Below, piece by piece: positions 57,645-61,142 of a DNA stretch of 64,000 nt. Numbering within the stretch: position 1 is the stretch's first letter; every line of letters starts with the position of its first letter. Position numbers and translations under genes: made by a program. The notes under the pieces were generated by a model. It saw only the letters and a list, made by a program, of their open reading frames with translations. It did no database searches and was not told the origin of the DNA. The DNA is from Actinacidiphila glaucinigra (GTDB taxonomy: Bacteria; Actinomycetota; Actinomycetes; Streptomycetales; Streptomycetaceae): NCBI RefSeq assembly GCF_900188405.1, contig NZ_FZOF01000008.1, forward strand, positions 310,001-374,000. The letters are read 5' to 3'.

Positions 57645-57663
57645 TTAGGTTAGGCAAACCTAA
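57645..57663 (+). promoter_or_regulatory. Iron box (DmdR/IdeR-type operator)
   Basis: TTAGGTTAGGCAAACCTAA matches the 19-bp consensus of DtxR-family regulators with a single departure from perfect symmetry. It ends 24 bp before the DUF2470 gene, so that gene should be repressed by iron. Confidence 0.88.
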
Positions 57664-57687: not shown

Positions 57688-58398
57688 ATGCGCAGCAAGA
57701 CCACCGCCCCCCTCGCTCCCGCCCGGCCGACGCACGCCGAACGCATCCGGTCCGTCCTCGCCTCGGCCCACTCCATGACCGTGGTCACCGACCGCGAACG
57801 CACGGAGGTGACCCGGCTGACCGCACAGGCGCTCGCCGGCCACGTCCACCTGCACCCCCTGGAGACAGCCTTCGGCCCCGAGGGCACGCCGATCTCGCTG
57901 GAGTTCACCGATGTCGCCCCCACCCCGGTACGGGACCGGGTGCGGGCCCGCGTGACCGTCACGGGCTGGACGGCCGCGCCGTACCGGTCGGACGCCCCGG
58001 ACAGCCAGTGCGTGCAGTTCGTGCACGCGACGCTGGAGACGGCCGAGGGCACCGCCTCCGTCGGCCTGGCGGAGCTGACGACGGCGGAGGCCGACCCGCT
58101 GGCGACGGCCGAGGCGGGGATGCTGACGCACCTGGTGGACGACCACGCGGAACTGGTACCGCTGCTCCTGCGGCTGGTACGGCCCGCCCCCGCCCCCGGC
58201 GCGCGGCGGGTCCTGCCCGTGGCCGTCGACCGGTACGGGATCACGCTGCGCGTGGAGTACGGGAACGGCCACACCGACGCCCGGCTGCCCTTCCCGTCCC
58301 GGCTGGAGGCCGCGGACCAGGCGGGGAGCCAGATCCAGGCGCTGCTCAACAGCGCGCGGCGCGCCTCGCACCGGGGGCGCCTGTTCGCCGGCTGGTGA
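57688..58398 (+). CDS. DUF2470 protein, iron-regulated
   Basis: 236 residues with the fold pieces seen in HugZ-like haem-utilisation proteins: N-terminal helical part (PTHAERIRSVLASAHSMTVVTD), a split-barrel-like region (VHLHPLETAF..ISLEFTDVAPTPVRDRVRARVTVTGWT), and the DUF2470 end (VDRYGITLRVEYGNGHTDARLPFPSRLEA). The iron box upstream supports a role in iron or haem metabolism. The enzyme activity is not established. Confidence 0.85.
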   Translation: MRSKTTAPLAPARPTHAERIRSVLASAHSMTVVTDRERTEVTRLTAQALAGHVHLHPLETAFGPEGTPISLEFTDVAPTPVRDRVRARVTVTGWTAAPYRSDAPDSQCVQFVHATLETAEGTASVGLAELTTAEADPLATAEAGMLTHLVDDHAELVPLLLRLVRPAPAPGARRVLPVAVDRYGITLRVEYGNGHTDARLPFPSRLEAADQAGSQIQALLNSARRASHRGRLFAGW

Positions 58399-58456
58399 TC
58401 CGGCGGCCGACGCGGCACCGCCCCCTCGTCGCAGCCCCCGCCCTGTCGCACCCCTC

Positions 58457-58483
58457 TGTCACATTGGACGCGTCCGGTTCGTC
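58457..58483 (+). promoter_or_regulatory. ECF41-type autoregulatory promoter
   Basis: TGTCACA - 16 nt - CGTC is exactly the -35/-10 pattern reported for ECF41 sigma factors, 45 bp before the sigma gene start. Confidence 0.75.
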
Positions 58484-58527
58484 AGTGCGCCGAGGGAACG
58501 CGACGAGGGAATGGGACCGAGGGACCG

Positions 58528-59427
58528 ATGGACGACGAGGAGTTCCTGGCGGAGCGGTTCGAGGACAACCGCGCGCACCTGCGGGCGGTGGCGTACCGCA
58601 TGCTCGGGTCGCTGACCGAGGCGGACGACGCCGTGCAGGAGGCGTGGCTGCGGCTGAACCGGGCCAGGGCGGACGGGATCGAGAACCTGGGCGGCTGGCT
58701 GACGACCGTGGTGGGCCGGGTGTGCCTGGACATGCTGCGCTCGCGCACCTCCCGGGGCGAGTCGCCGCTGGACGACGTACGGGTGCCCGACCCGGTGGTG
58801 AGCCCGCCGGACGCGGCCGGGGACCCGGAGCAGGCGGCGCTGCTGGCGGACTCGGTGGGGCTGGCGCTGCTGGTCGTGCTGGAGACGCTGTCGCCCGCCG
58901 AGCGGCTCGCCTTCGTGCTGCACGACATGTTCGCGGTGCCCTTCGAGGACATCGCCCCGATGGTGGGGCGGACGCCGACGGCGACGCGGCAGCTGGCCAG
59001 CCGGGCGCGGCGCCGGGTGCAGGGGGCGACTCCGGTGCCGGACGCCGACCTGGGCCGTCAGCGGCAGGTCGTCAGGGCCTTCCTGGCGGCCTCGCACGCG
59101 GGCGACTTCGAGGCCCTGGTGGCGGTGCTGCACCCGGACGTCGTACTGCGCGCGGACACCGGCGCCGCCTTTCCCGGGGCGACCCGGGAGGTGCGCGGCG
59201 CACGGACGGTCGCGAGCCAGGCGCTCACCTTCCGGCACGCGGCCCTGCAGGCGCGGCCGGCACTGGTCAACGGGGCGCCGGGGGTGGTCGCCGTGGCGGA
59301 GGGCCGGGTGGTGTCGGTCCTGGGCTTCACGATCGTGGACGGCCTCGTCGTCGAGCTGGACATCCTGGCCGATCCCGAGCGGCTGGCCGGGCTCGACCCG
59401 GCTGCGTTCGGAGAACAGCCGGAATAG
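58528..59427 (+). CDS. ECF41-family sigma factor (SigJ-like) with C-terminal SnoaL-like domain
   Basis: 299 residues: sigma region 2 (HLRAVAYRMLGSLTEADDAVQEAWLRL), region 4 (LETLSPAERLAFVLHDMFAVPFEDIAPMVGRTPTATRQLASRARRRV) and a ~115-residue SnoaL/NTF2-like domain (VVRAFLAASHAGDFEALVAVLHPDVVLRADTG) that replaces an anti-sigma factor in this group. The usual carboxymuconolactone-decarboxylase-like partner gene is not adjacent. ATG 58528 lies in GAGGGACCGATG. Confidence 0.92.
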   Translation: MDDEEFLAERFEDNRAHLRAVAYRMLGSLTEADDAVQEAWLRLNRARADGIENLGGWLTTVVGRVCLDMLRSRTSRGESPLDDVRVPDPVVSPPDAAGDPEQAALLADSVGLALLVVLETLSPAERLAFVLHDMFAVPFEDIAPMVGRTPTATRQLASRARRRVQGATPVPDADLGRQRQVVRAFLAASHAGDFEALVAVLHPDVVLRADTGAAFPGATREVRGARTVASQALTFRHAALQARPALVNGAPGVVAVAEGRVVSVLGFTIVDGLVVELDILADPERLAGLDPAAFGEQPE

Positions 59428-59461
59428 CTCACTTGTTCGATTGAGGGGTTACCCTGGAGCC

Positions 59462-60091
59462 ATGACCGCACCGCTCCAGGGATCGCTCTTCGACCAGACC
59501 GACGAGTTGCTGCTCGGTCCGCTGGACGGCCTCCGGCGGACCGGGCTCGGCAGCGGGGCGTGGCTCGACCTGCTGCCCGGGTGGCTGCGGGGGGCGGACG
59601 CCCTGTTCGGGGAGCTGGCGGGCTCGGTGCCGTGGCGGGCGGAACGCCGCCGGATGTACGAGCGGGAGGTCGACGTGCCCCGGCTGCTGTCCTTCTACGG
59701 GGAGGGCGATCCGCTGCCGCACCCCGTCCTCGACGAGGCCCGCGCCGCCCTCGACGCCCACTACGCCGACGAGCTCGGCGAGCCCTTCGTCACGGCGGGG
59801 CTCTGCTTCTACCGGGACGGCCGGGACAGCGTCGCCTGGCACGGTGACCGGACGGGGCGGTCGGCGACCCAGGACACGATGGTGGCGATCCTGTCCGTCG
59901 GCGACCCGCGCGACCTGGCGCTGCGGCCCCGCGGCGGGGGCGCGGCCTCGATGCGGCTGCCGCTGGGACACGGCGACCTCGTGGTGATGGGCGGCTCCTG
60001 CCAGCGGACGTGGGAGCACGCGATCCCCAAGAGCACTCGCGCCGTGGGGCCGCGGATCAGCATCCAGTTCCGCACGCGCGGCGTCCGCTGA
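59462..60091 (+). CDS. AlkB-like 2-oxoglutarate/Fe(II) dioxygenase
   Basis: 209 residues, double-stranded beta-helix. Iron ligands: His and Asp in VAWHGDRTGR and the distal His in WEHAIPK; 2-oxoglutarate arginines in PRISIQFR. AlkB proteins demethylate alkylated nucleic-acid bases. It follows the sigma factor gene by 34 bp and may be under its promoter. Start ATG 59462. Confidence 0.9.
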   Translation: MTAPLQGSLFDQTDELLLGPLDGLRRTGLGSGAWLDLLPGWLRGADALFGELAGSVPWRAERRRMYEREVDVPRLLSFYGEGDPLPHPVLDEARAALDAHYADELGEPFVTAGLCFYRDGRDSVAWHGDRTGRSATQDTMVAILSVGDPRDLALRPRGGGAASMRLPLGHGDLVVMGGSCQRTWEHAIPKSTRAVGPRISIQFRTRGVR

Positions 60092-60203
60092 ACCCGCTCC
60101 ATTGGGGGAACGGCCCCGTCCCCGTACAACCATTCGCACGCGAGCGCGAGTCAACGTGTGCGAGGGCCCGGCGACGGGCCGACGGGGAGGACGGGGAGGG
60201 GCC

Positions 60204-61142
60204 ATGGAACGGGGACGGACGGCGCGGCGCGCCGGGAGAGCTGCGGCGGCCGCGGTCGTGGTGGGCACGGTCGTGCCGACCGCCGTCGTGGGGACGGGTG
60301 CGGGGAGCGCCGCGGCGGCGGCACCGGCGGTGGTGTGCACCTCGGGCAAGGCGGGGCTGGCGGCGAAGCTGAGCGCGGACATCACCGGCGCGCTGCGCGG
60401 GAGGACGGCGACGGTGGCCCTGTCGCTGCGGGACCGCAGGACGAAGACGGTGTGCACGCTCCGCGCGGACCAGCGGTTCGACTCGGCGAGCACCGTGAAG
60501 GTGACGGTGCTGGCCACCCTGCTGTGGGACAACAAGAAGCACAACCGCTATCTGACCGCGCGTGAGGTCAAGCTGGCCACGGCGATGATCACCAAGTCGG
60601 ACAACGCCGCGACCACGCAGCTCTGGCGGCAGCTGGGGGTGGCCAAGGTGAAGGGCTTCCTGAAGGCCGCGGGGATGACCCGCACCGTGCCGGGGAGCAA
60701 CGGCTACTGGGGGCTGACGCAGATCACGGCCAAGGACGAGCAGCGGCTGCTCGACCTGGTGACGGCGAAGAACTCGGTGCTGAGCGACAACTCCCGGGCA
60801 TACATCCTGAAGTTGATGAACAAGGTGGTCACCGCGCAGCGCTGGGGCACGCCCGCGGGCGCCCCGCGGGGCGTGACGGTCCACGTGAAGAACGGCTGGC
60901 TGCCGCGCGCCACCCACGGCTGGCGGGTGCACAGCCTCGGCGCGTTCACCGGCTCGGGGCACGACTACTCCCTCACGGTGCTGACCCACGACAACCGGAC
61001 CATGAACGCCGGGGTCGCCACGATCGAGGCGGTCGCCCGCGTGGTCCACCGGGACCTCAACCCGGCCGCCACCGCCGCCGGGACGCAGTCGACGACGCGT
61101 ACGCCGCAGGAGGCGATCCCCGCCGTACCGCCGGGGACGTAG
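60204..61142 (+). CDS. Secreted beta-lactamase-fold serine hydrolase
   Basis: 312 residues with a Tat/Sec-like signal peptide (twin Arg-rich start, hydrophobic AAAAVVVGTVVPTAVVG, cut near residue 38). The fold markers are S-T-V-K (SxxK) near residue 95, SDNAA and, where KTG is normal, KNGW. It is therefore class A beta-lactamase-like but may act on peptidoglycan or another ester/amide rather than antibiotics. GGGGAGGGG before ATG 60204. Confidence 0.83.
   Translation: MERGRTARRAGRAAAAAVVVGTVVPTAVVGTGAGSAAAAAPAVVCTSGKAGLAAKLSADITGALRGRTATVALSLRDRRTKTVCTLRADQRFDSASTVKVTVLATLLWDNKKHNRYLTAREVKLATAMITKSDNAATTQLWRQLGVAKVKGFLKAAGMTRTVPGSNGYWGLTQITAKDEQRLLDLVTAKNSVLSDNSRAYILKLMNKVVTAQRWGTPAGAPRGVTVHVKNGWLPRATHGWRVHSLGAFTGSGHDYSLTVLTHDNRTMNAGVATIEAVARVVHRDLNPAATAAGTQSTTRTPQEAIPAVPPGT

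Follow-up and report, generated by a model that had tools for sequence, protein, structure and literature searches.

What does an ECF sigma factor control when the gene that usually accompanies it is missing? The question is raised by a sigma factor gene in a 64-kb stretch of Actinacidiphila glaucinigra DNA, referred to here as the window. An initial annotation of this locus described an ECF41 sigma factor with a promoter of its own and no COMD gene alongside, and suggested that the adjacent alkB-like gene may be its target or that its partner may be elsewhere. Orphans of this kind have been described before. Table 4 of Wecke et al. 2012 (PMC3426412) counts 126 orphan ECF41 genes, 38 of them with the ECF41 promoter, and about one third of ECF41 genes were partnerless in 2012; the same source describes orphans as especially abundant in actinobacteria. 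Since orphan ECF41 genes with a promoter have already been published, the window orphan belongs to a known type. What it may add is a lost partner that can be named from the remains of its promoter, and this bears on what ECF41 orphans control.

The sigma factor and its class

The sigma factor gene (58528-59427, plus strand) begins with ATG and encodes a 299-aa SigJ-type ECF protein with a C-terminal SnoaL_2/NTF2-like domain. Sigma-70 regions r2 and r4 exceed the Pfam cut-offs. The SnoaL_2 match is below its cut-off (22.2 vs 27 bits), and 26 of 34 aligned clade members match the same domain at E ≤ 0.001. The top NCBIfam profile is SigJ (PRK09636), which scores 266.7 bits, just under the cut-off of 271. 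An AlphaFold model of the protein (pLDDT 81.6, pTM 0.78) has Mycobacterium tuberculosis SigJ, 5xe7, as its best fold match over its length (E 4.6e-17, TM 0.75/0.81), followed by SigG1, 7qh5 (6.9e-14). The fold of the model resembles SigJ and NTF2-like proteins, and the C-terminal domain corresponds to the ~100-aa extension that marks ECF41, a group in which the extension is required for activity and regulates it (Wecke et al. 2012).

Is the protein a member of ECF41 in the strict sense? In a FastTree phylogeny of 145 sequences, which took 15 of the 17 own-genome paralogs and left out L024 and L026, a single clade with support of 0.934 gathers all 128 homologs of the window protein; SigJ, SigG1, and all 15 of these paralogs fall outside it. 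A DGGG-type motif is a conserved C-terminal motif of ECF41. Two others have been published for the group: WLPEP, in the linker between sigma2 and sigma4 (PMC3426412), and NPDKL, toward the C terminus (PMC7730460). Each of the three is found in 0 of the 128 clade tips, the window protein included, and in 7 (WLPEP), 10 (DGGG), and 4 (NPDKL) of the 15 paralogs. The window protein has VRVPDPVV at the place of WLPEP, and has LRADTGAAFP and LADPERLA rather than DGGG and NPDKL. Within the clade, P[DE]P is present in 118 of the 128 tips and DPxRL in 99. Since no clade member carries any of these signature motifs, we regard the sigma factor as SigJ-type and probably ECF41-like in its working, rather than as a strict ECF41. 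Thus, the profile and fold bear out the initial assignment to ECF41 as far as likeness goes, but not as far as strict membership. The protein is classed here as SigJ-type and ECF41-like by published ECF41 marks, SigJ, and SigG1 rather than by profiles of newer groups, of which ECF205, ECF294, and ECF295 are named in PMC8999054 and PMC7730460; both sources assign SigJ to ECF41.

Alternatively, the protein could be of the ECF56 type, that is, SigG1-like with a separate anti-sigma partner. It would share with SigG1 the lack of NPDKL, as described for SigG1 in PMC7730460, and SigG1 does come second in the fold ranking. SigJ, however, is ahead in that ranking and far ahead in sequence comparison (9.2e-46 vs 3.5e-14 for SigG1), the linker of the window protein is of the short type and lacks the SigG1 insertion, and the immediate neighbors of the gene are not anti-sigma-like. 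The promoter published for SigG1 is also different (CCG, 17 bp, CCCTCC; PMC7730460). With tree, linker, and fold ranking all placing the protein apart from SigG1, an ECF56-type factor is highly improbable.

ECF41 genes are described as having no anti-sigma gene in their vicinity (Wecke et al. 2012). The immediate neighbors of the sigma factor gene are a DUF2470 gene and the AlkB-like gene. The DUF2470 gene (PF10615; 57688-58398, plus strand) lies upstream in the same direction and occupies the place where COMD-bearing relatives have a divergent COMD gene. It adjoins the ECF gene in 2 of 52 loci, namely the window and the corresponding locus of genome G025. A sequence before the DUF2470 gene, TTAGGTTAGGCAAACCTAA at 57645-57663, is similar to the IdeR/DmdR iron-box consensus, and the gene may be iron-regulated.

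A promoter shared with homologous loci

Does the sigma factor transcribe its own gene? A predicted autopromoter, TGTCACATTGGACGCGTCCGGTTCGTC (58457-58483, plus strand), is an exact match to TGTCACA-N16-CGTC, with 44 nt between the end of its −10 and the start codon of the sigma factor gene. It has the form described for ECF41 promoters, TGTCACA-N16±1-CGTC before an ECF or COE gene, and homologs have sites of like form and spacing at roughly the same place upstream. Abundance says little about this motif. The exact form occurs once in the 64-kb window, where matches with up to two mismatches are not enriched (9 found vs 19.9 expected). Across the 9.8-Mb genome, the exact motif with N15–17 is likewise not enriched, with 8 sites vs 7 for the reversed pattern; the genome count therefore cannot settle by itself whether the motif is real, and it was dropped as evidence. 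The genome-wide search proposed initially did turn up several other copies, which is why the refuting condition named initially, a COMD gene elsewhere with the only other copy, does not apply cleanly.

The motif is unlikely to be a chance match because it recurs before homologous genes. A site scoring at least 9/11 is present within 250 nt upstream in 46 of 80 homologous loci, with ~4.9 expected from shuffles, although in a few of the 46 the site is far upstream and may be there by chance. The spacing is N16 in 43 of the 46. Sites scoring 11/11 are found in 9 of the 80 loci and in none of 1600 shuffles. In a second set of 52 loci, which includes the window and is partly from the same species as the set of 80, BGTCAC[AG]-N16-[CG]GTC is found within 300 nt upstream in 41, and a count over the 942 kb of the first 80 loci gives 82 copies of this pattern vs 5 of its reverse. 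A refined pattern, BGTCACAT-N15-SGTC, has 18 matches in the own genome vs 2 for the reversed control, but it was designed after the homologous sites had been seen, and no fewer than 5 of its matches (L182, L183, L185, L186, L187) are within or antisense to predicted ORFs. Hence, the recurrence upholds the ECF41-type promoter of the initial annotation, and the sigma factor likely uses TGTCACA-N16-CGTC and autoregulates.

An 8-bp tandem duplication, GGGACCGA (58513-58528, plus strand), lies directly before the start codon and is single-copy in locus L043. This duplication explains why the autopromoter, and the relic described below, are set back from the ATG by ~8 nt relative to the position most often seen in homologs (−63).

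Several further sites in the genome were noted. At C61:20953-20979 (L191), GGTCACAT-N15-CGTC is followed 79 nt downstream by an ECF41-like ORF that, by eye, has a region-2-like start, a SnoaL part with DGGGK and NPEKL, and apparently no region 4. At C75:464678-464704 (L198) and similar sites, several genomes share CGTCACATTGACG...ATCGTC, which in the own genome precedes what by eye is a quinolinate synthase (nadA)-like gene; this may be another kind of regulatory site that mimics the ECF pattern. On C62, two genes that by eye are PP2C/SpoIIE-like and ferredoxin-like are preceded by TGTCACAT-N15-GGTC (L194 and L195). This contig bears several ECF41 paralogs, and the GGTC sites are perhaps a second −10 class.

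A missing partner and a probable decayed divergent promoter

ECF41 genes frequently, but not universally, have a COMD, oxidoreductase, or epimerase gene alongside. There is none here. CMD (PF02627) has no match on the contig that carries the window (C50; 439,626 bases), the 16 CMD genes of the genome all being on other contigs, and five tblastn queries (two COMD, one NmrA-like, one SDR, one PIG-L) gave no match in the window at E 0.01. The initial observation that COMD is missing from the neighborhood was therefore correct.

What do related loci have in its place? The upstream neighbors were counted by tblastn, with the COMD of L072, in 128 loci with distinct upstream sequence, kept from 132. 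A divergent COMD gene is found in 17 loci, a divergent NmrA-like gene in 16, a co-directional PIG-L gene in 18, a co-directional COMD gene in 1, and none recognised in 76. One neighbor cluster, c1, was discarded after chaining had joined COMD with MFS proteins. The divergent arrangement is associated with a second promoter. Of the loci that have a divergent COE gene, 33 of 34 carry an intact site on the opposite strand (NGTCAC[AG]-N16-NGT[CT], at any position in the 330 nt upstream), compared to 15 of 75 loci without such a gene. A divergent ORF was counted as COE if tblastn matched it to COMD or to the NmrA type, or if it had a Rossmann-like start, and 19 of the 128 loci were left out for having a co-directional upstream neighbor (18 PIG-L, 1 COMD). 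The Fisher p-value of 3.4e-15 ignores relatedness, and overstates the association because the loci are not independent. Some of the 15 loci counted as lacking a COE gene may have partners that the queries missed.

Three loci have an intact divergent site that faces another type of gene, by eye an MFS transporter (L081), an SRPBCC-like protein (L112), and a VOC-like protein (L139); thus, partners may extend beyond COMD and epimerases. In a Streptomyces subclade (L078, L087, L101, L113, and relatives), a co-directional PIG-L gene lies upstream and the autopromoter is found in 0 of 18 loci. One clade member, in G023, is split over two matches (L258 and L267; G023:C2:4892363-4893307), possibly due to a broken gene or an assembly error.

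The window appears to retain the remains of such a second promoter. The minus-strand sequence GGTCCCATTCCCTCGTCGCGTTCCCTC (58492-58518) resembles a divergent COMD promoter in which the −35 GTCAC reads GTCCC and the −10 CGTC reads CCTC. It lies 35 nt from the autopromoter, a distance shared with L044, L046, and other homologs; in the set of 52 loci, 12 have a divergent site, and 7 of these have it 35 nt from the autopromoter. The putative relic and the divergent promoter of L044, which is intact, agree at 24 of 27 positions. Scored with a profile of 14 intact divergent sites, it reaches 29.0, with the next place in the window at 10.7. It now faces the 3′ end of the DUF2470 gene. The GGTCCC lesion is common to the window and the closest relative, G025, in which the sigma factor is 91% identical and a further insertion is present. 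As judged from these sequences, the divergent COMD gene was probably lost before the two species parted. Conservation of the relic may have another cause in part, since it overlaps the 5′ leader of the ECF gene.

Could the partner have been displaced rather than lost? The COMD gene in the genome that is nearest to the partner type is on C46, at 70–71% to two ECF-linked COMDs. This candidate was rejected: it has no TGTCACA-N16 site and belongs to another lineage. That lineage is 87–97% conserved in five other genomes without this ECF in its flanks, and for this reason the C46 gene is unlikely to be a displaced partner. Upstream TGTCCCA-N17 sites in the C46 lineage reach 9–10 of 11, and would pass as matches if the consensus were read loosely.

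The adjacent alkB gene

The AlkB-like 2OG-Fe(II) dioxygenase gene (59462-60091, plus strand; 209 aa; PF13532, 8.7e-17) starts 34 nt downstream of the sigma factor gene. Is it a target? Although 33 of 35 genus genomes have alkB, it adjoins the ECF gene in 2 of 30 genus loci and in 2 of 58 alkB loci overall (30 of the 33 genus matches plus 28 of the family), both times the window and G025. An ECF41-like N16 site scoring at least 9/11 lies upstream of alkB in 0 of 30 loci, four of which reach 9 with N15 or N17. As a conserved target, the role considered for it initially, alkB can be set aside.

The region before alkB has conserved features of its own. LexA-type boxes scoring at least 8/10 precede the gene in 42 of the 58 loci (~1.8 expected), and in many of these loci a TA...TGG-type element comes after the box. 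In the window, the corresponding box, TAGCTCACTTGTTCGA (59425-59440, plus strand), overlaps the ECF stop codon and is weak, at 7/10 to tCGAAC-N4-GNNCGa. It is not significant alone because ~14 of 58 shuffles reach at least 7/10. TAGCTCA-type boxes like that of the window precede alkB in L324 and L329 with no ECF gene alongside, and the case for a LexA-type box in the window would be made by its position and by these similar boxes. The TA...TGG-type element, GGTTACCCTGG (59447-59457, plus strand), recurs before alkB in relatives. A precedent for LexA control is provided by Streptomyces venezuelae, whose alkB belongs to the LexA regulon according to PMC9380542, which gives its induction by mitomycin C as 11-fold and its LexA site as GGTTACGCTGGATC. 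Given this precedent and the upstream conservation, a separately controlled gene of the SOS type is a better explanation of alkB than a sigma target, and the window alkB may be LexA-controlled.

Two other ideas about this region were discarded. Insertion of the ECF gene does not appear to have broken the SOS box of alkB, as the ECF-free L324 and L329 have boxes of the same TAGCTCA type. A match to the PafBC-type promoter motif TTGTn[AC]G-N10-TAnnnT precedes alkB in 2 of 30 loci, the window and G025.

A different possibility is that transcripts from the ECF promoter run on over the 34-nt gap into alkB, making it a target by co-transcription and providing alkylation repair with a second input in this lineage. 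The two genes are on the same strand, and read-through into alkB could occur because no terminator-like site was found in 58300-60250. The arrangement has been kept in G025, where the ECF and AlkB proteins are 91% and 95% identical, respectively, to those of the window, and the LexA-type box that remains is a weak one. Nevertheless, the window alkB still has GGTTACCCTGG and the GTTCG half-site of the box, as do relatives without the ECF gene, the best ECF41-like site directly before alkB scores 8/11 with N17, and the ECF gene is rarely found beside alkB (2 of 58 loci). Co-transcription is a rather doubtful explanation.

COMD genes elsewhere in the genome

Sigma factors need not be encoded beside the genes they transcribe. 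Of the 16 CMD genes, 3 are preceded by an ECF41-type site: a solo pair on C47, and one on C28 that adjoins a paralogous ECF gene. The C47 sites are at 212918-212944 and 176950-176976, and each −10 ends 38 nt before the ATG. Among relatives of the solo COMD genes, surveyed as the best match per genome (30 of 60 matches) with no shuffle control of its own, a site scoring at least 9/11 is found in 29 of 30 loci, and 27 of 30 have no ECF match in the 1.5-kb flanks. Unlinked COMD genes with ECF41-type promoters thus recur in the genus. No report of such unlinked promoters, or of relic partner promoters, in the ECF41-type group was found among the open-access papers searched.

Are the two C47 genes, with their ECF-free flanks, the functional partners of the window sigma factor, which would then act in trans? 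The occurrence of the motif before them and before their relatives is what this model predicts. The distribution of the genes fits less well. G020, which lacks the clade (its best match to this ECF is 38% identical, 1e-44), still has the COMD motif at 10/11; in G021 the COMD motif lies beside another ECF41-like gene; and G001, G015, G018, and G028 have clade members but no such COMD gene at E 1e-45. Co-occurrence of the solo COMD genes with this ECF clade was accordingly rejected, there being exceptions in both directions. Moreover, ~13 other ECF41-like genes in the genome could read the C47 sites. Regulation of these genes in trans is a tentative possibility, with the odds against it. The initial suggestion of a partner elsewhere therefore holds insofar as motif-bearing COMD genes do exist at other places in the genome, but the divergent COMD gene of relatives has apparently been lost, with its relic still in place.

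A probable orphan with its own predicted promoter

What is the most likely history of this locus? We favor, with a probability of roughly two in three, an orphaned SigJ-type factor that has its own promoter, has lost a divergent partner whose promoter has decayed, and lies beside a separately controlled alkB gene. This reading draws on the motif and its recurrence, the clade, the relic sequence, the upstream conservation of alkB in relatives, and the model fold. First, the ECF41-like sigma factor would most likely transcribe its own gene from TGTCACA-N16-CGTC, with the fused SnoaL_2-like domain presumably tuning its activity. Second, in one arrangement that recurs in the clade, a gene of COMD or NAD(P)-binding/epimerase-like type is divergent to the sigma factor gene and accompanied by another, opposite-facing copy of the promoter. 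Third, the divergent gene would have been lost in this lineage and its promoter would have decayed, leaving an orphan with itself as the sole well-supported cis target. Fourth, a lineage-specific rearrangement would have brought alkB to its place downstream; alkB probably keeps its own control, and read-through from the sigma factor gene may add to its expression.

The consequences reach beyond this locus. Two outputs can be considered for the orphan, the unlinked COMD genes and read-through into alkB. The layout with two promoters could serve as a sequence rule for finding true partners. A broader and distinctly speculative idea is that a large, mainly actinobacterial clade of SigJ-type factors has changed all three ECF41 motifs together, kept the promoter, and repeatedly loses the divergent COMD gene. 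In this lineage, where the orphan now precedes an SOS gene with a weak LexA-type box, control of alkB might then be shifting away from LexA and toward read-through driven by the sigma factor, and a recent rewiring would have been caught with the promoter of the old partner still legible.

Comparison with known systems

How does this system compare to those already described? The window factor shares with group ECF41, as represented by Ecf41Bli and Ecf41Rsp in the account of Wecke et al. 2012 (PMC3426412), the TGTCACA-N16-CGTC promoter and the C-terminal extension, and the COMD, oxidoreductase, or epimerase-type partners in that account are also found in its clade. It differs from the group in that WLPEP, DGGG, and NPDKL are missing throughout the clade, which is separate in the tree. 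M. tuberculosis SigJ provides both the best profile and the best fold match, but SigJ has WLPEP and NPDK, whereas the window protein has neither and scores slightly below the SigJ profile cut-off. SigG1 of S. tsukubaensis, an ECF56 factor, has the same r2-r4-SnoaL_2 layout; as described, it differs from the window factor in having a longer linker, an anti-sigma factor of its own, RsfG, and another promoter. Lastly, the LexA-controlled alkB of S. venezuelae, as presented in PMC9380542, has a conserved element near the start codon, as does the window alkB. Unlike its S. venezuelae counterpart, the window alkB has a sigma factor gene directly upstream and a LexA-type box that is weak.
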